From positions 124,001-188,000 of the forward strand of contig NZ_SDWS01000004.1 in the NCBI RefSeq assembly GCF_004137245.1: 64,000 bases of DNA, written 5' to 3'. Source of the stretch: Nocardioides glacieisoli. GTDB lineage: Bacteria; Actinomycetota; Actinomycetes; Propionibacteriales; Nocardioidaceae. Below are positions 11,758-42,309 of the stretch, one piece after another (within the stretch, counting starts at the first letter, position 1; each line of letters opens with the position of its first letter). The notes below the pieces were generated by a model. It saw only the letters and a program-made list of their open reading frames with translations. It was not told the origin of the DNA and did not search any database. Position numbers and translations under genes: made by a program.

Positions 11758-11822
11758 CCCACTCACCCGTGGGACGGAAGTGAATATCCAGCCGTGTTGG
11801 TCACCGTTTCGCAACGGCGGCG

Positions 11823-12371
11823 TCAGGCGGTGGCGTCGTTGAGCCGCCCGATCGCGGCGAGCTCGTCGTCGGTGAACTCGCCCGACACCTCGAGCACCCG
11901 CTGCAGCACCGCGGACTTGCCGGCGATGTAGGTCTCGATGTCCATCGCGGGGTCGGCTGCGAGCGCCAGCTTGACCGCGGCGTACGCGTCGCGGAGGTCG
12001 TCGCGGGCGCGGAGCACGTCGCGGACCGCCAGGTGGTTGCGGACGTTCGTCGTGCCCGCGGTGCAGACGTAGACGTGGCGTCGCGGCTCGTCGGGGGCGT
12101 AGAAGGCCTCGCGACCGGTGACGCCGAGGTCGCCCCGGTGGACGTAGCCGACCGACTCCAGCGCGGTCACCGCACCCGTCACGTCGGCGGCGTCCACGAC
12201 CACGTCGATGTCGAGGATCGGCTTGGCGGCCAGCCCGGGCACCGAGGTGGAGCCGACGTGCTCGACGCGCGCCGAGCCGATCCCGGCCAGCGCGTCCCGC
12301 AGGACCGCGGCCACGGCCTCGAACTGCTCGGCCCACCCGGGCGACCAGTCGACGACGCGAATCTCGCTCAC
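11823..12371 (-). CDS. GrpB family nucleotidyltransferase-fold protein
   Basis: A 182-residue GrpB/UPF0157 protein. The family carries a nucleotidyltransferase-like fold, and the signature VEHVGSTSVPGLAAKPILDIDVVV (split over about residues 38-62) is plain, including the GST and DID elements. The substrate is not known; related proteins include CoaE-fused domains. The GTG start overlaps the trmI stop by one base (TAGTG), so it is translationally coupled to trmI. It ends the trmI transcription unit, about 95 nt before the next gene. Confidence 0.88.
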   Translation of the reverse strand: MSEIRVVDWSPGWAEQFEAVAAVLRDALAGIGSARVEHVGSTSVPGLAAKPILDIDVVVDAADVTGAVTALESVGYVHRGDLGVTGREAFYAPDEPRRHVYVCTAGTTNVRNHLAVRDVLRARDDLRDAYAAVKLALAADPAMDIETYIAGKSAVLQRVLEVSGEFTDDELAAIGRLNDATA

Positions 12372-13354
12372 TAGTCCGCTTCGACGGTCTCGACGGTCTC
12401 GACCGGCGGCAGGTCGGCCGGCCGCGGTCCGGTGTAGTCGGGGCCGTACGCCCCGGGCGCGGGCCGGCGGGTCTTGCGCGGCGGCTTTTCCCCCGGTGCC
12501 ATCCGGCGGGCGGTGACCAGGAACGCGGTGTGCCCGATCATCTTGTGGCCCGGTCGCACGGCCAGGCCCTCCACGTGCCAGTCGCGCACGAGCGACTCCC
12601 ACGGCTGCGGCTCGGTGAAGCCACCGTGGACGCGCAGGGTCTCGACCACCCGGGAGAGCTGGGTGGTCGTCGCGACGTAGGCGCAGACGATCCCCCCGGG
12701 CACCAGCGCGTCGGCGACGACGTCGACGCAGTTCCACGGGTCGAGCATGTCGAGGATGATCCGGTCGACCTGGTGGCGACCGTGGTCGGCCAGACCTTCC
12801 TTCAGGTCGCCGAGGCGCAGGTCCCACGCGGGATGGGTCTGGCCGTCCGGGGCGGAGAAGAACTGGTTCACGTTGCGGCGGGCGACGTCGGCGAACTCCT
12901 CACGCAGCTCGTACGACGTCACGCTCCCCCACGGCCCGACGGCCCGGAGCAGCGAACAGGTCAGTGCGCCCGACCCGGCGCCGGCCTCGACCACCCGGGC
13001 ACCCGGGTAGATGTCGGCGAGGGCGACGATCTGCGCGGCGTCCTTCGGGTAGACCACGGCCGCTCCGCGCGGCATCGAGACGACGAACTCGTTGAGCAGC
13101 GGCCGGAAGACGAGGTACTGCCCGCCCGCGGACGAGACGAGGGTGAAGCCCTCGTCGCGGCCGATCATGTCGTCGTGGTCGAGATGGCCCTTGTTGGAGA
13201 AGAACCGCTTGCCGGCGACCAGCTCGAAGTTGTGCTTGCGGCCCTTCTGGTCGACGAGCCGCACCCACTCGCCCTCGCGCAGGGGGCCGCGGTGGACGCC
13301 GGACCAAGCCTCGGCGGGGACGTCAGCTCTGTCGACTGTGGGGGGCTCGGACAT
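12371..13354 (-). CDS. trmI: tRNA (adenine(58)-N(1))-methyltransferase
   Basis: TrmI methylates N1 of A58 in the T-loop of tRNA using SAM. The 327-residue protein has the N-terminal beta-barrel domain (RLVDQKGRKHNFELVAGKRFFSNKG, split over about 33-56). The SAM-binding motif VVEAGAGSGALT is at about 121-132, and the ILDMLDPWN catalytic segment at about 200. The C-terminal tail is Pro/Arg-rich. TAGTCT lies 7 nt before the ATG, suggesting a leaderless message. TrmI next to mpa, a site-2 protease and a RecB-type nuclease is a common actinobacterial arrangement. Confidence 0.95.
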   Translation of the reverse strand: MSEPPTVDRADVPAEAWSGVHRGPLREGEWVRLVDQKGRKHNFELVAGKRFFSNKGHLDHDDMIGRDEGFTLVSSAGGQYLVFRPLLNEFVVSMPRGAAVVYPKDAAQIVALADIYPGARVVEAGAGSGALTCSLLRAVGPWGSVTSYELREEFADVARRNVNQFFSAPDGQTHPAWDLRLGDLKEGLADHGRHQVDRIILDMLDPWNCVDVVADALVPGGIVCAYVATTTQLSRVVETLRVHGGFTEPQPWESLVRDWHVEGLAVRPGHKMIGHTAFLVTARRMAPGEKPPRKTRRPAPGAYGPDYTGPRPADLPPVETVETVEAD

Positions 13355-23463: not shown

Positions 23464-24273
23464 TCAGCCTCGGCTGACGAAGTCGACGAGCTCCGCCGCC
23501 ACGCGAGAGGCGCCCGCGGCGTTGAGGTGGGCTCCGTCGGAGGTGTAACCGCCGAACAGCGCCTGATCGCCTGTTGCCCCGTCCGGCCCCTGCGCCTCGA
23601 TCGAGGCGATGTCGAACAGCTGGTCGGGTCCGTACGCCGCGCGCATCAGGTCGTTGTAGCGCTCCCGCGCTGCGTTGTCGTCGCGGCCGAGCACCACCTT
23701 GACGCGGTCCTTGATCCCGCGTGGCCCGGTCGTCAGCGGGACGGTCATGTGGACGAAGCGGACGTCCGGGAAGTCCGCCTCGAGGCGGTCCATCGTCTGC
23801 CGGTAGGTCTCGAACAGGTCCTCGACGTCGGTGTACCAGCTGACGTCGACGTAGCAGAACTTCAGTGCGGCCAGGTCGACCTGGTCGCCCAGGCCGCCTC
23901 GCACCAGGGCCTCGAAGTTCTCCAGCTTGCCGACTGGGTGCCGGTTCTCACCGATGAGGGCGTGCGCCAGCACGCCACCGGCCGGCAGGTCGGGCACCTC
24001 GGTGGCGGCCACCTCGACCTCCACCTCGGCCACCGGTCCGACGCCGTGCGCCGCGCCGACCTCCCGGAGCCCCGACAGGATGTTCTTGCCCACCGACATG
24101 TGGCCGAAGAAGATGCGGCGCTCCGAGAACGCCTGCAGGTCACTGGCCTCCACGAGCGTCGCCCCTTCGTCAGCCGCCGGCTCGAACCTGGGTGTCGGGT
24201 CCCAGAACGTCAGCAACGTCACCGCGGCGGCCAGGCCGACCACGACCGCCGCCGCTGCCAGTCGAACGAACAC
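23464..24273 (-). CDS. Membrane-anchored SGNH-hydrolase-like protein
   Basis: A 269-residue exported or membrane-tethered protein: one hydrophobic segment (about 4-23), then an extracytoplasmic domain. The segment FGHMSVGKNILSG places a Ser where SGNH esterases have their nucleophile. DGAHLNAAGA near the C-terminus resembles the Asp-x-x-His block. Such proteins often remove or transfer acyl groups on surface glycans. It is divergent from the acyl carrier protein gene at the left end of the glycan locus, sharing its intergenic region, which contains a TCCCC/GGGGA dyad. Enzyme activity is inferred from weak motifs only. Confidence 0.65.
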   Translation of the reverse strand: MFVRLAAAAVVVGLAAAVTLLTFWDPTPRFEPAADEGATLVEASDLQAFSERRIFFGHMSVGKNILSGLREVGAAHGVGPVAEVEVEVAATEVPDLPAGGVLAHALIGENRHPVGKLENFEALVRGGLGDQVDLAALKFCYVDVSWYTDVEDLFETYRQTMDRLEADFPDVRFVHMTVPLTTGPRGIKDRVKVVLGRDDNAARERYNDLMRAAYGPDQLFDIASIEAQGPDGATGDQALFGGYTSDGAHLNAAGASRVAAELVDFVSRG

Positions 24274-24504: not shown

Positions 24505-24774
24505 ATGCAGGCGCACGTGGAGGATCAGCTCAAGCAGTTCATCGTGGACTCGTACCTGTTCGGGGACACGACGCGGATGCCAGGGGACTCGGAGTCGCTC
24601 CTGCGGGCCGGGGTCCTGGACTCCACCGGGGTGCTCGAGCTGATCGAGTTCCTGGAGGCCGAGTTCTCGATCACGGTCGAGGACGTCGAGACCGTTCCCG
24701 ACAACCTGGACAGCATCGCCGGTGTCGTCCGGTTCGTCGCGGCCAAGCGCCACGCAGGTGAAGGGGCGGCGTGA
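24505..24774 (+). CDS. Acyl carrier protein
   Basis: An 89-residue acidic four-helix carrier. The phosphopantetheine site is the Ser in GVLDSTGVLELIEFLE (about residue 35), followed by the usual helix II and the FSITVEDVE turn. It begins the glycan operon: ATG at 24505 with GGGGAG 7 nt upstream, and GTGA overlap with the next gene. It would hold an activated acyl or amino-acyl group, perhaps for transfer to a sugar. It is probably modified by the AcpS encoded at 41929. It is too specialised in context to be the housekeeping fatty-acid carrier, though that is inference. Confidence 0.9.
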   Translation: MQAHVEDQLKQFIVDSYLFGDTTRMPGDSESLLRAGVLDSTGVLELIEFLEAEFSITVEDVETVPDNLDSIAGVVRFVAAKRHAGEGAA

Positions 24775-24977
24775 CCGCCGACCTGGTGGCCCGCCTCCTC
24801 GCCGAGTCCGTCCACCTGCCCCCTGAGGGGGACCCCGCGCAGGCAGCCCTGCGCTGGGCGATCCTGATCGAGGACTCCCTCGGTGTCGTCCTGTCGGACG
24901 AGCAGATCGGTTCGGTGTCGCTCGCGGACCCCGAGCACCTCAGGGCGCTCGTGACCGCCGCCCCTCGCTCCCGCTGA
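24771..24977 (+). CDS. Tiny ACP-like protein lacking the carrier serine
   Basis: A 68-residue acidic, helical protein between the ACP and asparagine synthetase genes. Its GTG overlaps the ACP stop (GTGA) and its TGA overlaps the next ATG (TGATG), so it is translationally locked into the operon. The stretch WAILIEDSLGVVLSDEQ followed by LADPEHLRALV resembles helices II-IV of a carrier protein, but no Ser sits in an Asp-Ser-Leu context at the right place. It may be a degenerate carrier, a docking or regulatory partner, or something unrelated. No family was recognised. Confidence 0.7.
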   Translation: MTADLVARLLAESVHLPPEGDPAQAALRWAILIEDSLGVVLSDEQIGSVSLADPEHLRALVTAAPRSR

Positions 24978-26962
24978 TGTGCGGCATCTGCGGCATCGTC
25001 AGCTTCGACCGGAGCGTCGACGCTGACCTCGTGGCCGACATGGTCACCAGCCTCGAGCACCGCGGTCCGGACGACTCCGCCGTGGTCGTGGACCACGGTG
25101 CCGTCCTGGGGCACTCCCGGCTGGCGCTGATCGACGTCGCCGGAGGTGCGCAGCCGCTCGGCAGCGCCGACGGCACGCTCTGGGTGACGTTCAACGGCGA
25201 GGTGTTCAACTACGTCGAGCTGCGGGAGGAGCTGCGGTCGCTCGGCCACCACTTCACGACGGTCAGTGACACCGAGGTGGTCGTCCACGCCTACGAGCAA
25301 TGGGGGGCGTCCTGCGTCGAGCGCTTCAACGGTCAGTGGGCCCTCGCCGTGTGGGACCGCAGGCGACGACGACTGGTGCTCGCCCGTGACCGCATGGGCG
25401 TACGCCCCCTCTACTACCGCGTCCTGGGGCGCGAGCTGGCCTTCGCCTCCGAGGTCAAGACCCTCTTCACCGACCGCAGCGTGACCCGCGAGCTCGACCC
25501 GGCGGGCCTGAAGCAGGTGTGGACCTACTGGTCCTGCGTGGCCCCGAGCACCGTGTTCACCGACATCCGGCAGCTGGCGCCCGGTCACGTGGCGACGTTC
25601 GACGACACGGGTCTGCGCGTGGACCCGTACTGGTCCCAGGACTTCCCCGAACGAGGACGCGAGGCCTCCCAGGACCTGGAGGAGAACGCCGCGGCGCTCC
25701 GCGAGGCCGTGACGAGGGCGACGCGGCTGCGGTTCGAGCGGAGCGACTTCCCGGTCGGCGCCTACCTCTCGGGCGGACTCGACTCGGCGGTCACCGCGGC
25801 GACCATCCGCCATGCCACGTCGGCGGACCTCACGACCTTCTCGGTCCGGTTCACCGACGACGAGTTCGACGAGGGCCCCTACCAGCGGTTGATGGTCGAG
25901 CGCCTCGGCACGACGCACCACACTGTCGACGTGTCCCACCGCGACATCGCCGAGGTCTTCCCGGAGGTGGTCCGCCAGGCGGAGTCCCCGCTGCTCCGCA
26001 GCGCGCCCGCCCCGCTGTTCCTGCTCTCCCGGCTCGTGCGGGAGAACGGCTACAAGGTGGTGGTCACCGGGGAGGGCGCCGACGAAGTCCTCGGGGGGTA
26101 CGACATCTACCGCGAGGCGCGGGTGCGCCAGTTCTGGGCACGCGACCCGGGCTCGACGATGCGCGACGGAGCCGTCGGCCTCCTGTACCCCTGGCTGGCG
26201 CGCAACCCGGGCAAGGCCCCGGCCTTCGCCCGCAGCTTCTTCGGCGCCGGCGCCGACCCGACCGACCGGGCCATGTCGCACCACCCGCGGTGGAGCAGCA
26301 CGTCCGCCCTCACCGCCATGCTCTCGCCTGCGCTGCAGAGCAGCATGGCCGCGACGGCGGTCGCCGACCCGGCCGAGCGGATGCCGGCCGCGGCGGAGGA
26401 CTGGGACCCGCTGAGCCGGGCCCAGTGGCTGGAGATCGCCACGCTGCTGCCCGGCTACATCCTGGCCTCGCAGGGCGACCGGATGCTCATGGCCAACTCC
26501 GTCGAGGGTCGCTTCCCGTTCCTCGACCGCGAGGTCGTCGAGCTGGCCTCCCAGCTGCCGGCCCGGCACAAGCTGTTCGGCCTCGAGGAGAAGTTCGTGC
26601 TGAAGCGGGCGTTCGCCGACCTGGTGCCGCCGGAGATCCTGGCCAGGCCCAAGCAGCCCTACCGCGCCCCGGACGCGCCCAGCTTCTTCGCAGACGGAGT
26701 TCCCGACTGGGTCGCGGAGGTGACCTCGCCGCGCGCGCTGGCCGCCGCTGGCGTCTTCGACCCCCGCCAGGTCGCCGGCCTGGTGGAGAAGGCACGCCGG
26801 CGCAGCCGGAGCTTCGGCAACACCGACAACATGAGGATGGTCTCCGTCCTCTCCACCCAGCTGCTCCACGAGCAGCTCGTCGTCGGTTCAGGCCTGGACC
26901 GGCCCGGACGGCTCGCTCCCAGGCGGGTCGTCGACATCCGCGACACCGAGGAGGACGCATGA
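24977..26962 (+). CDS. asnB: Asparagine synthase (glutamine-hydrolysing), glycan-locus type
   Basis: A 661-residue two-domain enzyme. The glutaminase domain starts with MCGICG (Cys2 nucleophile) and carries RGPDD and FNGEVFNY. The synthetase domain has the PP-loop LSGGLDS at 264-270 and TGEGADEVLGGY. It makes an amide from a carboxylate using glutamine and ATP. In glycan loci such AsnB proteins are thought to amidate sugar acids or carrier-bound acyl groups rather than aspartate. It is coupled by single-base overlap to the tiny ACP-like gene and by ATGA overlap to the NAD-synthetase-like gene. The substrate is unproven; a housekeeping role in Asn synthesis is the alternative. Confidence 0.93.
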   Translation: MCGICGIVSFDRSVDADLVADMVTSLEHRGPDDSAVVVDHGAVLGHSRLALIDVAGGAQPLGSADGTLWVTFNGEVFNYVELREELRSLGHHFTTVSDTEVVVHAYEQWGASCVERFNGQWALAVWDRRRRRLVLARDRMGVRPLYYRVLGRELAFASEVKTLFTDRSVTRELDPAGLKQVWTYWSCVAPSTVFTDIRQLAPGHVATFDDTGLRVDPYWSQDFPERGREASQDLEENAAALREAVTRATRLRFERSDFPVGAYLSGGLDSAVTAATIRHATSADLTTFSVRFTDDEFDEGPYQRLMVERLGTTHHTVDVSHRDIAEVFPEVVRQAESPLLRSAPAPLFLLSRLVRENGYKVVVTGEGADEVLGGYDIYREARVRQFWARDPGSTMRDGAVGLLYPWLARNPGKAPAFARSFFGAGADPTDRAMSHHPRWSSTSALTAMLSPALQSSMAATAVADPAERMPAAAEDWDPLSRAQWLEIATLLPGYILASQGDRMLMANSVEGRFPFLDREVVELASQLPARHKLFGLEEKFVLKRAFADLVPPEILARPKQPYRAPDAPSFFADGVPDWVAEVTSPRALAAAGVFDPRQVAGLVEKARRRSRSFGNTDNMRMVSVLSTQLLHEQLVVGSGLDRPGRLAPRRVVDIRDTEEDA

Positions 26963-27963
26963 CCACCACTGCCGAGACGACTACTGCCGGGACGAGCAGC
27001 GCACTCGACATCGACTGCGAGGCCGAGACCCAGCGCATCGTCGTCGTGCTGCGGCGCTACCTCGTCGACGTACGGAGGAAGGGCTACGTCGTGGCCCTCT
27101 CGGGAGGCATCGACTCCAGCGTCACCGCCGCGCTGTGCGTGGCGGCCGTCGGCCCCGGCCGCGTCTTCGGGCTCCACATGCCCGAGCGGGCCTCGGCCCC
27201 CGAGACGCTGCGGCTGAGCCGCGAGGTCTCGGACACGTTCGGCTTCGACTCGGAGGTCGAGGAGATCGCGGACACCCTCGAGGCGGTCGGTTGCTACCGC
27301 CGGTACGACGAGGCGGTGCGCCGCGTGGTCCCGGACTACGGGTCCGGCTGGCGCTCGAAGATCGTGCTGCCGAGCGTGACGGAGGACGACGCCCTGCGCA
27401 TCTTCTCGATCGTCGTGGAGGACCCGGACGGGGTCCGCAGCCGGCACCGGCTGACGACCGAGGCCTACCTGGGCGTCCTGGCGGCCACCAACTTCAAGCA
27501 GCGGGTGCGCAAGATGCTCGAGTACCACCACGCGGACCGCCTCAACTACGCCACCACCGGCACCCCGAACCGGCTGGAGTACGACCAGGGATTCTTCGTC
27601 AAGCTCGGCGACGGTGCCGCCGACGTGAAGCCGATCGCCCACCTCTACAAGACGCAGGTCTACGCGTTGGCCGCGTACCTGGGCGTGCCGGCCGAGATCC
27701 GCGCGCGTCCCTCCACGACCGACACCTACTCCTTGGCCCAGTCGCAGGAGGAGTTCTACTTCTCGCTCCCCCACCACCTCATGGACCTGTGCCTCCACGC
27801 CCGCGACCACGACGTGCCGGTGCACGAGCTGGCCGCCTCCGTGGGCCTGGACGTCCCCTCGGTCGAGCGCGTGCTGCGCGACATCGACCAGAAGCGCCGC
27901 ACCACCACCTACCTCCACCAAGCACCCGTGCTGGTCGAGCCGATCGCGGCGGTCGACGGTTGA
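26959..27963 (+). CDS. NAD(+) synthetase-like ATP-pyrophosphatase
   Basis: A 334-residue protein of the NadE family with the PP-loop ALSGGIDSSV (about 46-55), YATTGTPNRLEYDQGFFVKLGDGAADVKPI (split, about 195-224) and the LYKTQVYALA helix. It has no glutaminase domain, so it would use free ammonia or ammonia from a partner such as the adjacent AsnB. Canonical NadE amidates deamido-NAD through an adenylate. Here the ATGA overlap with asnB and position in a glycan operon suggest it adenylates and amidates another carboxylate. Whether it can still make NAD cannot be judged from sequence alone. Confidence 0.88.
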   Translation: MTTTAETTTAGTSSALDIDCEAETQRIVVVLRRYLVDVRRKGYVVALSGGIDSSVTAALCVAAVGPGRVFGLHMPERASAPETLRLSREVSDTFGFDSEVEEIADTLEAVGCYRRYDEAVRRVVPDYGSGWRSKIVLPSVTEDDALRIFSIVVEDPDGVRSRHRLTTEAYLGVLAATNFKQRVRKMLEYHHADRLNYATTGTPNRLEYDQGFFVKLGDGAADVKPIAHLYKTQVYALAAYLGVPAEIRARPSTTDTYSLAQSQEEFYFSLPHHLMDLCLHARDHDVPVHELAASVGLDVPSVERVLRDIDQKRRTTTYLHQAPVLVEPIAAVDG

Positions 27964-27964
27964 G

Positions 27965-29437
27965 ATGACCACGCAGCAGGCGGAGGAGGTCCGGACGGCG
28001 TCCCGCGGACGAGTCGTCCGGGGCGGGTCGGCGCTCGCGGCCGCGTCGGCCGTCGAACGCCTGGCGCGGCTCGGTCGCAACATGCTGCTCGCGCGCGTCA
28101 TCGCGCCGGACCAGTTCGGCCTCATGGCCGTGGTCCTGGCCGTCCTGGCCCTGTTCGAGGCTCTCACCGAGGTCGGCGTCGCCCAGGCCGTCATCCAGAA
28201 CGCGCGCGGCTCGACACCGGCGTTCCTCAACGTCGCGTGGTGGTTCGGCGTGGCGCGCGGGGTCGTGGTCGCCGTGGCGACCCTCGTGCTGGCGGGCCCG
28301 ATCGCCAGCTTCTACGACATGCCCGACCTCGAGCCGCTGCTCATGGTCGCCGGGCTCAGCGTCGTCTTCACCGGGCTCGTCAGCCCGCGGGTGTACGCCC
28401 TGCAGCGTGAGCTCCGCTTCGGCGCCACCCTCGTCGCCTTCCAGGGCGCAGCAATGCTGGCGACCCTGGCCACGCTGGCGCTGGGGCTGTGGATGCAGAA
28501 CGTGTGGGCGTTGCTGTGGGGCGCCGTGCTCGAGTCCCTGCTCCGGTTCCTCCTCTCGTTCGTGGTTGCCCCGTTCCGGCCGGGCCTGCACTGGGACCGC
28601 GAGTCCCGGCGGGACCTGTTCCGCTTCACTCGCGGCATGGCCGGACTGTCCCTGCTCACCTTCCTCGTCATGCAGGCCGACACGTTCGTCCTGGCCAAGG
28701 TCGTCACCGTGGAGGAGGTCGGCGTCTACGCCATGGCGATCGCCCTGGCCGCCGTCCCGCTGACGATCTTCAGCAAGGCCGTCCAGCCGCTGGTCGTGCC
28801 GGTGCTGGCACGGCTGCAGGCGGACCCGGTCGAGATGCGCCGCGCGGTGCTGCACATGTCCCGCCTGGTGTGGCTGTTCGGCCTCCCCCTGGTGGCCGTC
28901 CTTGCCTCCGCCGCGGAGCCGCTCCTCGTCCTGGTCTACGGCCGGGAGGAGTTCGGTCGTGCCGCAGCGGCCTTCGCGGTCTACTCGCTCTTCGTCGTGG
29001 TCTACATGGCCTCGATGGTGACGTTCTCGGTCTACCTCGCGCTCGGTCGGCCTGAGCTGCAACGGCGCTTCACCGTGGTCAGGGCAGGGCTCGTCGTGGT
29101 GCTGGTCTACCCGCTCACCGCGGCACTCGGCGGCACCGGGGCTGCGCTCGCCCTCCTCGTCTCGATGATCGGGGCGATGGCCGTGCAGCTGACGAGCCTG
29201 CGACGGGTGATCGGCCTGGGCGTCGCCGACTACCTGCGCACCGTGCCGCCGGGGGTCCTCGCCGCCACGCCGGCGCTCCTCGTCGTGCTCACCGTGTGGG
29301 CGTCCGGTCGCCCGGGCTGGCTCGTGGTGGCGGTGGCTGCGGCAGCCGGTGCCGCGACCTGGGTCGTGCTCGCGCTCCTGGAGCGCCACCCCCGCCCGCT
29401 GCCCATCCTGCGCACGGCCGTCGGAGGACCGTCGTGA
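27965..29437 (+). CDS. Lipopolysaccharide-type flippase (Wzx/MurJ superfamily, polysaccharide exporter)
   Basis: A 490-residue integral membrane protein with about 12-14 helices and the N-terminal RGGSALAAASAVERLARLGRNMLLARVIAPDQFG pattern (split over about 19-53) of O-antigen flippases. It would move lipid-linked glycan repeat units across the membrane. Its start is 1 nt past the NAD-synthetase-like stop, and its own stop overlaps the next gene (GTGA), so it belongs to the same coupled operon. Confidence 0.92.
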   Translation: MTTQQAEEVRTASRGRVVRGGSALAAASAVERLARLGRNMLLARVIAPDQFGLMAVVLAVLALFEALTEVGVAQAVIQNARGSTPAFLNVAWWFGVARGVVVAVATLVLAGPIASFYDMPDLEPLLMVAGLSVVFTGLVSPRVYALQRELRFGATLVAFQGAAMLATLATLALGLWMQNVWALLWGAVLESLLRFLLSFVVAPFRPGLHWDRESRRDLFRFTRGMAGLSLLTFLVMQADTFVLAKVVTVEEVGVYAMAIALAAVPLTIFSKAVQPLVVPVLARLQADPVEMRRAVLHMSRLVWLFGLPLVAVLASAAEPLLVLVYGREEFGRAAAAFAVYSLFVVVYMASMVTFSVYLALGRPELQRRFTVVRAGLVVVLVYPLTAALGGTGAALALLVSMIGAMAVQLTSLRRVIGLGVADYLRTVPPGVLAATPALLVVLTVWASGRPGWLVVAVAAAAGAATWVVLALLERHPRPLPILRTAVGGPS

Positions 29438-30378
29438 GCGCCCCGGTCGACGTGTCCGTGGTCATCGTCAGCTGGAACACGCGCGACCTCCTCCTCGAGG
29501 TCGTCGACTCCCTGAGGTCGACCACCCACCGGACGTCCTACGAGGTGATCGTCGTCGACAACGCCTCCAGCGACGGGTCGGTCGAGGCGCTCACCGAGCG
29601 GCACCCCGACGTGACCGTGATCGTCAACCCCGACAACTACGGCTTCGCGAGGGCGAACAACATCGGCTTCGCCGTGGCCCGGGGCGCGGCGTACTGCCTG
29701 GTCAACACCGACGTGGTCGCGCACGACGGCGTGATCGACGAGCTGTGGTCCTACCTGGAGCAGCACCCCGGCGTCGGCGCCGTGGCGCCGATGACGCTGC
29801 ACGCCGACGGCCGCGTCCGCGCGAACGTGCGCCGCTTCCCGGACCTGCGCAACGCCCTGGGCGACCACCTGTGGCTCAAGCGGTTGCTCCCGAGCGTCTT
29901 CCCCGGCCGGTCGACGCCGCTGGACACCCTCCGCTCGACCCACTCGGCGGAGGTCCTCTCCGGCTGCTTCCTCATGGTGCGCCGCGGCGCGGTCGACGAG
30001 GTCGGCCCCCTCGACGAGGGGTTCTTCTTCTACGGCGAGGACACCGACTGGGCCCGTCGGCTGCGCGACGGCGGGTGGGACTGCGTCTACCACCCGGCGG
30101 CGACCGCCACCCACCTCGGCGGCGGCTCCACGGCGGCGCACCCCGTGACGTACTACCTGGCGATGGAGAAGTCGGACCTGCGCTACTGGAACAAGCACCA
30201 GTCCCCCAGGGCCCGCGACGCCTACGTCGCCATCCGGCTGCTCCACAACCTCGCGTCGATCGCGGTCTGGGCCCTCGTGTGGGTCGGGCGACCGCGCCAG
30301 CGCGACCGCGCGGGGCTGAAGGTGCGTGGCAACGCACGGAACACGGGGTGGCTGCTCACCCACCTGGAGAGGGGCTAG
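29434..30378 (+). CDS. Glycosyltransferase family 2, rhamnosyltransferase-like
   Basis: A 314-residue GT-A fold glycosyltransferase. DVSVVIVSWNTRDLL opens the fold; VVDNASSDGS and NYGFARANN are characteristic of rhamnosyl/galactofuranosyl-type members; VNTDVV supplies the DXD-like metal site; and FFFYGEDTDWARRLRDGGW is the acceptor-side motif. A short hydrophobic stretch near 275-288 may associate with the membrane. GTG start with GGAGGA upstream, overlapping the flippase stop. It ends the first coupled operon and overlaps the convergent acetyltransferase-like gene by 4 bp. Confidence 0.92.
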   Translation: MSAPVDVSVVIVSWNTRDLLLEVVDSLRSTTHRTSYEVIVVDNASSDGSVEALTERHPDVTVIVNPDNYGFARANNIGFAVARGAAYCLVNTDVVAHDGVIDELWSYLEQHPGVGAVAPMTLHADGRVRANVRRFPDLRNALGDHLWLKRLLPSVFPGRSTPLDTLRSTHSAEVLSGCFLMVRRGAVDEVGPLDEGFFFYGEDTDWARRLRDGGWDCVYHPAATATHLGGGSTAAHPVTYYLAMEKSDLRYWNKHQSPRARDAYVAIRLLHNLASIAVWALVWVGRPRQRDRAGLKVRGNARNTGWLLTHLERG

Positions 30379-31385: not shown

Positions 31386-31489
31386 GCCGTCTCCCTTCGC
31401 GAGCCACACCAGTCGTCGAGTGCGAGCCGGGGCCCGCAGGCGTGGGATGGGCCTCAGGGTAGTACGACCGAGCGGGGGTGGCGGGTCTC

Positions 31490-33301
31490 ATGAGTCAGCG
31501 AGCGGGCACCGGGATCCTGGCGGTCGTCACGGCACGGCCGGGCGAGCCGCCGTGCGAGGTGGGGCGCGCCGTCGCCGGAGCCGGGTTGACGCCGCTGCGG
31601 GCGGTCGGCGGGACCTGGCTGACGTCGTGGGGACACGAGTCCGCACTCCCCACGACGACACGTCCGCTGCTGCTGTCCGGCCGGGCCCGACGGCGTGGCG
31701 CACGGGTCGCGGACGACGACGTGGCCCGGTTGATCCGCGCCGGTGACGTGGTGGAGGTCGGACGGTTCGACCCGCCCTTCGCGGCCCTCGGACTCACGGA
31801 GGACGGGGTCCGGGTCGCCACCGACCGGATGGGCTTCTCGCAGGTGTTCTGGTGCCGAGGTCCGGGGTGGGACGCCGTGTCCACGTCGGCCCGGCTCCTC
31901 GGACGCCTGCTGGGCGGGGCGCTCGACGACGAGGGCGTGCTGGTGCAGAGCCAGGTCGGGTGGCAGCTCGGGTGTCGCACGCTCTACCGGGGCGTCACCA
32001 AGCTCGCGCCCGGCGAGTCGGCGACCCTCGATGGTGCGGGGTTGCTGATCTTGCGCAGTGCCGACGACGTCGTGGACCCCGGCTCGATCCGTCTCGACGA
32101 CGCCGTGACGGCCGCAGCGACCGCGTTGCGCAGGTCGATGGCCGGCTACCTGCGGGAGGTGGAGCACCCGGTGCTCCAGCTCACCGGCGGGATGGACTCC
32201 CGCGCCGTGCTGAGCTCGGTGCCGGCCCGGTCACGAGCCGGCCTGCCGGCGTTCACGCTCGACGTCCCGGGTTCGTCCGACGCGACGGTGGCCCGCTCCC
32301 TGGCCGAGCTGACCGGGCTCGAGCACCGCGTGTACTCCCTCGCCGGGCTCACGACCGTGCCGCCCGACGAGTGGTTCGCCCGGGTGCTGGCGGCGGCCGA
32401 GGACCACGACGCGATGGTGAACCCGATCGCCAAGGCCGCCACGGGCTGGGCCGAAGCGTCGATCGACCAGGGTGACCGCCTCGGCGGGATGGGCGGCGAG
32501 GTCGCGCGTGGGTTCTTCTACGCCGGTGCCGTGCGTCCATCCGCGGTGACGCGACACCGCAGCGAGCGGCTCGCCCGGTGGCGCCTCATGGCCAACGAGG
32601 CCGTCGAGCCCGCCGCGCTGCACGTCCGGCACCGGTCGGCCGCAGCCGTCACGGCCGTCGACGCGGTGCACGCCGCGCTCGTCCAGGCAGGTGACGAGTG
32701 GTTCAGCGCGACCGACGACCTCTACTACCGGCACCGCCTGCCTCGCTGGGCCGGCCCGGACCAGACGACCGCGTCGCACCGCCGCCGGATCATGAACGTG
32801 ATGCTGGACCCGGACTTCATGGGCGTCGTGCGGAGCGTGGCCCCCACGGACAAGAACCGTGCCCGGTTCTGGGGATGCCTCCAGATGCAGCTCGACCAGG
32901 ACCTTGGCAGGCTACCGCTGGAGGGACGGCCGTCCCCGGAACACTATGCGCGCGGCGGGCGCAGCGCCTGGGCGCGACACGGCGTTCGCCAGCTCGACAA
33001 GGCGGTGCACAAGGCGCGACAGCGCGTGATCGGTGCGCGGCGGCCGCCCGTCGGGGGCACGACCGTCGCCGCCGGGGTGGTGGACCACCTCCGTGCCCGG
33101 GCGGTGGTGCTCGACCCGCTGCGGGACTCCGGGTGGTTCGACGACGGATGGCTCGACGCCGTGCGCGACGGCAGCGTCCGGCCGCAGCCCAGCACGGTGG
33201 CGTTCATGGTCAACATGCTCGTCGCCCTCGACCCCACGCCCGATCCCACGCTCGACTCCACGCTCGACTCGACGCTCGACTCGACGGAGGTACTCCCATG
33301 A
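31490..33301 (+). CDS. Asparagine-synthase-like protein without the glutaminase Cys
   Basis: A 603-residue protein of the asparagine synthase-related class. The N-terminal half keeps traces of the Ntn fold (the DRMGFSQVFW segment matches DRMG.RPLYY) but has no Cys at position 2, so glutamine cannot be hydrolysed in the normal way. The synthetase half has a changed PP-loop, LTGGMDSRAVLS. Such proteins occur in glycan loci and peptide maturation. It may form amide bonds with an amine supplied by another route. Its C-terminus has a TLDST tandem repeat encoded by 12-bp units. The ATGA overlap couples it to the next gene. ATG 31490 is preferred over GTG 31478. Confidence 0.85.
   Translation: MSQRAGTGILAVVTARPGEPPCEVGRAVAGAGLTPLRAVGGTWLTSWGHESALPTTTRPLLLSGRARRRGARVADDDVARLIRAGDVVEVGRFDPPFAALGLTEDGVRVATDRMGFSQVFWCRGPGWDAVSTSARLLGRLLGGALDDEGVLVQSQVGWQLGCRTLYRGVTKLAPGESATLDGAGLLILRSADDVVDPGSIRLDDAVTAAATALRRSMAGYLREVEHPVLQLTGGMDSRAVLSSVPARSRAGLPAFTLDVPGSSDATVARSLAELTGLEHRVYSLAGLTTVPPDEWFARVLAAAEDHDAMVNPIAKAATGWAEASIDQGDRLGGMGGEVARGFFYAGAVRPSAVTRHRSERLARWRLMANEAVEPAALHVRHRSAAAVTAVDAVHAALVQAGDEWFSATDDLYYRHRLPRWAGPDQTTASHRRRIMNVMLDPDFMGVVRSVAPTDKNRARFWGCLQMQLDQDLGRLPLEGRPSPEHYARGGRSAWARHGVRQLDKAVHKARQRVIGARRPPVGGTTVAAGVVDHLRARAVVLDPLRDSGWFDDGWLDAVRDGSVRPQPSTVAFMVNMLVALDPTPDPTLDSTLDSTLDSTEVLP
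33248..33283 (+). repeat. Three tandem 12-bp units at the end of the asparagine-synthase-like gene
   Basis: ACGCTCGACTCC, then ACGCTCGACTCG twice, encoding Thr-Leu-Asp-Ser units. The length is a multiple of three, so copy-number changes would keep the frame and the coupling to the next gene. Confidence 0.85.
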
Positions 33302-41915: not shown

Positions 41916-41921
41916 TAGGGT
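41916..41921 (+). promoter_or_regulatory. Leaderless -10 element of acpS
   Basis: TAGGGT, 7 nt before the GTG start of acpS. Confidence 0.5.
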
Positions 41922-41928
41922 GGGGATC

Positions 41929-42309
41929 GTGAGCGTCGTGGGGGTCGGCACGGACGTGCTCGAGGAGGCGCGCATCGCGCGACTCGTCGACTCCGGCGGC
42001 AGCCGCTTCCTGGCCCACTGGTACACCGCCGCCGAGGTCGAGATGTGCTTCACGTCGGCGCGCCCCTCGCGCGTCGCCGCGACCTGCTTCGCCGTGAAGG
42101 AGGCGGCGCTGAAGGCGATCGGGATCTCGTTCCCCGGTCCCCTGATGTGGCGGGAGATCGAGGTCAGCCTCGACGACGCGGGCAGCGTCACCGTCCGGCT
42201 CGCCGGTGATGCGGCCGTCCAGGCGACGCGGTCGGGCGTGGTCCGGCTGCATGCCTCGACGGCCCGGACCGCAGGCTGGCTGGCGGCGGTGGTCGTCGCC
42301 GAAGGGTGA
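41929..42309 (+). CDS. acpS: Holo-[acyl-carrier-protein] synthase
   Basis: A 126-residue phosphopantetheinyl transferase that loads carrier proteins. VGVGTDVLEEARI carries the Mg-binding Asp (residue 9) and CFAVKEAALKAIG carries the KEA motif (Glu58), both as expected for AcpS. The GTG start follows a TAGGGT hexamer by 7 nt. It lies inside the glycan locus, so it is the likely activator of the carrier protein encoded at 24505, though it could equally be the cell's general AcpS. Confidence 0.92.
   Translation: MSVVGVGTDVLEEARIARLVDSGGSRFLAHWYTAAEVEMCFTSARPSRVAATCFAVKEAALKAIGISFPGPLMWREIEVSLDDAGSVTVRLAGDAAVQATRSGVVRLHASTARTAGWLAAVVVAEG

Follow-up and report, generated by a model that had tools for sequence, protein, structure and literature searches.

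Within a 64,000-nucleotide window of the Nocardioides glacieisoli genome (assembly GCF_004137245.1, contig NZ_SDWS01000004.1, positions 124,001 to 188,000; coordinates below count from the first letter of the window), we analyzed an operon that encodes an acyl carrier protein (ACP), a 68-residue ACP paralogue without the attachment Ser (p68), an AsnB-type glutamine amidotransferase and a NadE-like ATP-pyrophosphatase. Comparison with canonical-NadE neighborhoods confirms, at the level of gene linkage, that the ACP/AsnB/NadE-like arrangement is more than a chance one, and together with an AMP-forming ligase these genes make up a real and widespread cassette. The existence of the cassette is well supported; as to its chemistry, which we infer, our best reading is that it is a carrier-protein-dependent amidation system building an amide-bearing group for a surface glycan, a reading that we hold tentatively and with a confidence just short of even.

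The operon runs in the order ACP, p68, asnB, nadE-like, flippase and then a GT2 glycosyltransferase. The ACP and p68 genes overlap by 4 nt (GTGA), p68 and asnB by 1 nt (TGATG), and asnB and nadE-like by 4 nt (ATGA), while a gap of 1 nt separates nadE-like from the flippase gene. All five genes and coupled junctions of the preliminary description were thus seen in place, and with the 3' end of the flippase gene overlapping the GT2 gene by 4 nt (possible GT2 start at 29434) the operon is longer than had been described.

24505..24774, plus strand: carrier protein (ACP) with a D-S-T-G phosphopantetheine motif
24771..24977, plus strand: p68, ACP paralogue without the attachment Ser, joined to asnB through TGATG
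24977..26962, plus strand: AsnB-type glutamine amidotransferase, passing the TIGR01536 cut-off; best specific subgroup eps_aminotran_1 (TIGR03108), below cut-off
26959..27963, plus strand: NadE-like ATP-pyrophosphatase (NCBIfam NF002048/PRK00876) with an insert not in the canonical NadE rows aligned
27965..29437, plus strand: Wzx/MOP-type flippase, accessory and outside the conserved core
29434..30378, plus strand: GT2 glycosyltransferase, 4-nt overlap with the flippase gene

Cassette loci were taken as the best 80 of at least 562 NadE-like relatives from many phyla found in a genome scan, with genes in unannotated loci called by a script based on open reading frames and codon position. Among these 80 loci an ACP is present in 65, an AsnB in 69 and a ligase in 71, and 57 have the full trio; the trio is complete in 41 of the 51 loci that span 17 kb or more. 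Controls were 20 canonical-NadE neighborhoods, taken from 19 cassette genomes and the present one, 17 of them at least 17 kb long; they gave no ACP (0/20), no ligase (0/20) and one weak AsnB match (1/20). The carrier/AsnB/NadE-like set put forward in the preliminary description is therefore borne out as a conserved unit, and the ACP/AsnB linkage on which that proposal hinged is kept among relatives. The flippase, in contrast, which had been counted as part of the set, lies outside the conserved core and was rejected as a core member on account of relatives in only 13 of 84 cassette loci. Gene order within the cassette differs between phyla, and the pairwise distances of the four cassette proteins correlate at 0.55–0.77 over 56 loci, values that still include species relatedness. 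Cassette AsnB proteins (n = 71, some cut at contig ends) keep MCGxxG in 63, SGGxDS in 67 and GEG[AS]DE in 70 cases. Within the family Nocardioidaceae the NadE-like protein occurs in 3 of 149 sampled genomes (E 1e-60), and the ACP in the same 3 (E 1e-8). The parts all come from known families, and what is new is their union with a NadE-like amidating enzyme and with a carrier paralogue that lacks the Ser; no description of an ACP, AsnB, NadE-like and ligase cassette was found in the literature searched (a limited library), in keeping with the preliminary description, which knew of no described pathway with such a gene set.

A tblastn search against plasmids gave 117 records with a match, of which 76 are Sinorhizobium and 9 Ensifer. 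In Sinorhizobium medicae asnB, ACP, an AMP-binding protein (the ligase) and nadE lie head to tail on the same strand, and S. meliloti GR4 has the same four-gene set and order, the first three being 93% identical to those of S. medicae. In the available part of PMC7232532 the carrier SMb20651 is reported to be co-transcribed with a FadD-like ligase on pSymB, and that ligase, SMb20650, acylates SMb20651 in E. coli and gives no complementation of fadD; the function of SMb20651 was described in 2017 as needing further investigation (PMC5686131, from the excerpt available). By the published pSymB adjacency and the S. medicae and GR4 matches, the Sinorhizobium cassette appears to be the operon of this orphan carrier, the sequence records used being without those locus tags. 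Two further loci deserve mention in their own right. A record titled Bacillus subtilis SK6B4 (L103) holds an alphaproteobacterial-type cassette like that of Pseudochrobactrum (L091), and the assembly is probably mislabeled or contaminated. In locus L151 (G575:C1, 9245-10641) an ACP/NadE-like pair has its ACP Ser replaced (DAAG) and its NadE PP-loop degraded (AGDVGSA); the pair seems to be either a remnant in decay or one put to another use.

The NadE-like protein is a member of NCBIfam NF002048 (PRK00876), scoring 487.9 bits against a cut-off of 313; of 396 sampled genomes of the phylum, 2 exceed this cut-off, the present one included. It keeps the PP-loop as SGGIDSS and thereby carries the ATP-pyrophosphatase motif, together with the core residues shared by NAD synthases. 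When 82 NadE-like sequences were compared with 13 canonical NadE domains (obtained from 13 of the 20 control loci), 20 positions, those of SGGxDS included, reached at least 90% identity in each group. With regard to a deamido-NAD pocket like that of canonical enzymes the picture is mixed: N178, R182, R184 and D218 are kept, whereas five conserved canonical positions (39, 196, 214, 254 and 256) are switched, V214, T254 and T256 among them. An insert at about residues 110-165 is not in the canonical NadE rows, of which three were inspected. The AlphaFold model (predicted local distance difference test, pLDDT, 92) matches NAD synthases in fold, including 3fiu, titled nicotinamide mononucleotide (NMN) synthetase. 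The preliminary description had staked its case on this gene not being the only nadE of the genome, and indeed a second NAD_synthase gene, a 681-aa open frame, lies on contig C10, and another NAD_synthase match was found elsewhere in all 39 of the 39 genomes carrying NadE-like that were counted by hand (a fortieth, L047, being left out of the count). Given these second genes and the cassette linkage, housekeeping NAD synthesis is considered unlikely as the main role. A large family that carries the NAD(+) synthase annotation is marked out as probably having another function. In a Desulforapulum record (L076, 8976-10972) the NadE-like gene stands straight after an apparent kinase gene, as judged by eye, with no ACP, AsnB or ligase near, an arrangement that represents a second context for the family.

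The ACP (24505-24774) carries DSTG and matches peptidyl, D-alanyl and PigG carriers, which upholds its earlier assignment as a carrier protein, although a search against Pfam gave no match at 1e-3; the cassette ACPs at large had been cut to length with a motif pattern, passed by 68 of 69, ahead of the motif count. The adjacent p68 is related to it. A hidden Markov model (HMM) built from 17 p68 members retrieves cassette ACPs, the best at 4.4e-7, along with two more p68 members, and in the reverse search an ACP HMM recovers 1 of the 8 p68 proteins looked up, at 1.5e-5. Alignment of the p68 profile with that of 24 ACPs in hhalign gives 95.2% and E 2.5e-8, covering mid-helix II through to the end. 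The p68 model is a four-helix bundle (pLDDT 79) for which the listed matches are largely carrier proteins, with a best Z of 7.3, modest for a helical bundle, so that the ACP assignment rests on the sequence profiles; a Foldseek search with the same model gave no match at E 0.001. No D-S is present in the attachment segment of any of 18 p68 members (0/18), and the E-D-S-L that the window p68 has 14 residues beyond this segment is not conserved. By these profiles and motifs, p68 is an ACP homologue without an attachment Ser and not a working carrier.

p68 is found in 19 of 84 loci, in actinobacteria and two Spirochaete records, always immediately 5' of asnB, with junctions that overlap by 1 nt in 15 cases, touch in 2 and have a 4-nt gap in 1; in L038 the p68 frame runs beyond the asnB start, probably through a frame shift in the draft. 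The p68 HMM finds no member in several actinobacterial loci, for instance L047, L050 and L073. Thus, of the 68-residue helical partner without a carrier Ser that was noted earlier, the Ser-less ACP homology and the position beside asnB stand, but it is a partner in a minority of loci. AsnB requires a free N-terminal Cys, and therefore an N-terminal fusion would be impossible; a subunit of AsnB would be expected to come from a gene of its own, coupled tightly to asnB. In line with this argument, p68 probably docks on AsnB as a carrier-like subunit.

The AsnB of the window keeps the N-terminal Cys, SGGLDS and GEGADE. It scores 486.3 bits against TIGR01536 (asparagine synthase; cut-off 267.1), a broad model that does not fix the substrate, and 424 of the 816.9 bits required by TIGR03108 (eps_aminotran_1, XrtA amidotransferase), the best specific subgroup, of which it is therefore not a formal member. 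Four Asn_synthase matches are present in the genome, namely the cassette AsnB, 31478-33301 in the window, C22:481032-482054 and C22:474645-475568.

No AMP-binding gene was found on the window contig (C31), for which reason a ligase close by was rejected; the candidate lies instead on contig C22, which encodes the protein of this genome that best matches the Sinorhizobium ligase. This C22 ligase shares 73–75% identity with its counterparts in the Nocardioides cassettes L043 (Nocardioides sp. SYSU D00778) and L044. Within a set selected by similarity to the S. medicae ligase, 75 ligases including that of C22 form one clade (support 0.999) that excludes seven other ligases of the present genome, usable sequence being at hand for 7 of the 9 outgroup stretches. 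The C22 type is found in 2 of the 149 family genomes, both among the 3 with ACP and NadE-like, and in no other at E 1e-75. In L038 (Ornithinimicrobium), the most similar cluster, a cassette-type ligase with an interrupted frame lies on the same contig, ~17 kb on. Identity, clade, co-occurrence and the same-contig ligase of L038 together suggest that the C22 ligase serves the window ACP. The preliminary description had an acid, on the carrier or a sugar, adenylated and converted to an amide with ammonia from the AsnB glutaminase; the simplest activator of an acid for the carrier is a dedicated AMP-forming ligase rather than AsnB or the NadE-like enzyme. Neither this ligase nor the divergent SGNH-type protein had figured in that description.

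The best solved relatives of the ligase are nonribosomal peptide synthetase (NRPS) adenylation domains, followed by malonyl- and oxalyl-CoA synthetases. At the residue that we place at position 330, in the presumed acyl pocket, all 75 ligases have Arg, whereas five outgroup ligases of the present genome have Pro, Ala or Gly and in two the motif was not found. The classical amino-acid Asp (Asp235) is kept in 29 of the 75, and amino-acid adenylation read from this code was therefore rejected, no amino acid being nameable. From the invariant Arg and the solved relatives of ligase and carrier, the substrate is probably a small carboxylic acid with a second anionic group, of the kind an amidotransferase would neutralize. 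The C22 ligase reaches 318 of the 592.35 bits of TIGR03098 (XrtA ligase) and falls below its cut-off. As separate observations, Nocardioides-type ligases lie near PqqD-like and AsnB-like genes in L043 (3140-7771), L044 (4432-7774) and L118 (9251-12674), with a short glycine-rich peptide gene among them in L043 and L044, and these stretches, labeled by eye from the translations, look like a lasso-type cluster for a ribosomally synthesized and post-translationally modified peptide (RiPP) interleaved with the cassette. In L053 (Nocardioides, 11813-13300) a ligase above the TIGR03098 cut-off adjoins the cassette, an exosortase-type exopolysaccharide (EPS) gene in an actinobacterium.

The setting of the operon may point to a glycan. 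Downstream lie genes for a GNAT protein, a divergent AsnB-like protein, a fusion of glycosyltransferase and pyruvyl-transferase, a Wzy-like protein and AcpS; three features of the surroundings recur in the argument:

23464..24273, minus strand: SGNH/GDSL-type protein with a hydrophobic N-terminus, divergent and upstream; phmmer relatives in 27 of 84 cassette loci
31478-33301: second, divergent AsnB-like protein (PF00733, 24.6 bits)
41920..42309 (start approximate), plus strand: AcpS-type phosphopantetheinyl transferase; relatives in 23 of 84 cassette loci

Of the 51 long cassette loci, 31 carry glycan markers, versus 1 of 17 long controls, in a comparison that leans in favor of the cassette loci, from which the markers were mostly drawn. 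None of the 20 controls has an SGNH-type protein, or a GNAT-type protein, the latter being found in 18 of 84 cassette loci. The glycan setting of the preliminary description is supported to this extent, and it loses the flippase as a core element.

In the order of steps that we infer, the AMP-forming ligase (here from C22) would activate a carboxylic acid of small size that probably bears another anionic group, and would load it on the phosphopantetheine arm with which the local AcpS may equip the ACP. AsnB, with nitrogen from glutamine, and the NadE-like enzyme, with ammonia, would each adenylate a carboxylate and convert it to an amide, either on the carrier-bound unit or on the recipient sugar, and in actinobacteria p68, made together with AsnB, would probably serve this enzyme as its docked carrier-like subunit. 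The finished group would be moved to a glycan precursor by a GNAT protein or a glycosyltransferase and then flipped out, and the SGNH protein possibly trims or transfers it outside the cell. Precedents are at hand for two forms of this chemistry: WbpS and WbqG, eps_aminotran_1 members, make uronamides (PMC7468200, in the part available), and AsnB homologues have been hypothesized to convert malonyl-ACP to malonamyl-ACP (PMC7756379, likewise in part). Both chemistries fit, and the sequences do not choose between them. A more far-reaching version of the proposal is possible, though we would put it forward with somewhat greater reserve: the PRK00876-type "NAD synthase" of hundreds of genome stretches may be no NAD synthase at all and act instead as an amidating enzyme of a carrier-dependent pathway that uses two different ATP-pyrophosphatase amidotransferases, and in actinobacteria and some spirochaetes a Ser-less pseudo-carrier, translationally locked to AsnB, may as a subunit steer the loaded carrier to the amidotransferase.

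Several observations weigh against the amidation cassette as outlined. In the present genome the ligase is unlinked to the rest, and the C22 ligase has fatty-acyl- and feruloyl-CoA synthetases among its closest solved relatives. The motifs and fold of the NadE-like protein are those of NAD synthases, and the AsnB, being above the general asparagine synthase cut-off in a genome with three other Asn_synthase matches only, could have an ordinary asparagine role. No glycan marker is seen in 20 of the 51 long loci. AsnB is missing from some of them, such as L077 with ACP and ligase only; L055, L063, L067 and L075 have no detectable ACP and keep AsnB and ligase; L076 and L097 have NadE-like without any partner, and L085 with the ligase only. 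It follows from these partnerless or partial loci that the NadE-like family is not exclusively a cassette enzyme. Finally, the third family genome (G575, of the same genus) has ACP and NadE-like alone, both apparently dead.

Of the alternatives, a rather unlikely one separates two modifications: AsnB, and with it the NadE-like enzyme, would form an amide on a glycan hexuronic acid in the manner of WbpS, and ligase and ACP would supply an acyl group to another position. The flippase, glycosyltransferase and Wzy-like genes around the operon suit this idea, as does the placing of AsnB nearest to eps_aminotran_1, the subgroup of the uronamide-forming WbpS and WbqG (PMC7468200, as available), but it leaves unexplained why NadE-like tracks ACP and ligase across phyla, loci without glycan markers included, and it does not account for the coupling of a carrier homologue, p68, to AsnB. 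A second alternative, in which the ACP receives a long-chain fatty acid from the ligase and the amidotransferases give a fatty-acid primary amide or an N-acyl amide lipid, we consider improbable. Fatty ligase models of the PRK06187 type do score high, SMb20650 is a FadD homologue that acylates its carrier in E. coli, and, as a further point against our own reading, it is listed among fatty-acid activation genes lowered under predation (PMC10315480, in the portion available). On the other side, SMb20650 did not complement fadD (PMC7232532, same portion as above), NRPS adenylation domains head the solved relatives of the ligases and activators of short acids are among those that follow, the carriers match peptidyl types, and all 75 ligases share the Arg of the presumed acyl pocket. 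Quite improbable is a mere second NAD (or NMN) synthase in the operon by happenstance beside an ordinary asparagine synthase, which agrees with the 488-bit family match, the fold match to NAD synthases and 3fiu and the TIGR01536 score but is opposed by the other NAD_synthase gene in 39 of 39 genomes, the tight ACP/AsnB/ligase linkage with neither ACP nor ligase in any of 20 control loci, and the insert and the switched V214, T254 and T256.

The carrier-dependent amidation cassette thus preferred can be set beside several known systems. Dlt D-alanylation employs a ligase, a carrier and an SGNH-type protein, all of which it shares with the cassette. An MBOAT protein of the DltB type was, however, not found in 19 of 20 cassette genomes; in the remaining one it lies far from the cassette and none is present in our genome, and Dlt/Alg-like O-acylation was rejected on these grounds. 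Exosortase A EPS clusters, with their TIGR03098 ligase and TIGR03108 amidotransferase, have related ligase and AsnB types, and the L053 ligase passes TIGR03098, whereas the ligases L118 and L035 stay below its cut-off (318 and 458 of 592 bits). NadE-like and p68 are not known as members of the exosortase A EPS gene set. With WbpS and WbqG an AsnB-type enzyme is again the neighbor of Wzx within a glycan locus. The available part of PMC7468200 names neither a carrier nor a ligase nor a NadE-like enzyme with them, and the window AsnB, at 424 of 816.9 bits, is below the TIGR03108 cut-off. The malonamyl-ACP starter units of the glutarimide pathways (SmdFGH, ChxBCD, GdsBCD) similarly combine a carrier with an AsnB homologue hypothesized to amidate a carrier-bound diacid, but there the carrier is loaded by an acyltransferase in place of a ligase, the part of PMC7756379 at hand names neither a NadE-like enzyme nor p68, and the context is polyketide, not glycan. 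The window's p68 provides a clean case of a carrier paralogue that has no attachment site yet is still tied to one enzyme, and, should it prove to be a substrate-handing subunit, an unusual route for passing substrates to an amidotransferase. The Sinorhizobium SMb20650/SMb20651 operon, like the window, has asnB, ACP and NadE but holds its ligase inside the four-gene unit and, unlike the window, is without p68, AcpS or flippase within that unit; in return, the cassette gives the orphan carrier SMb20651 a genetic home and a testable chemistry.

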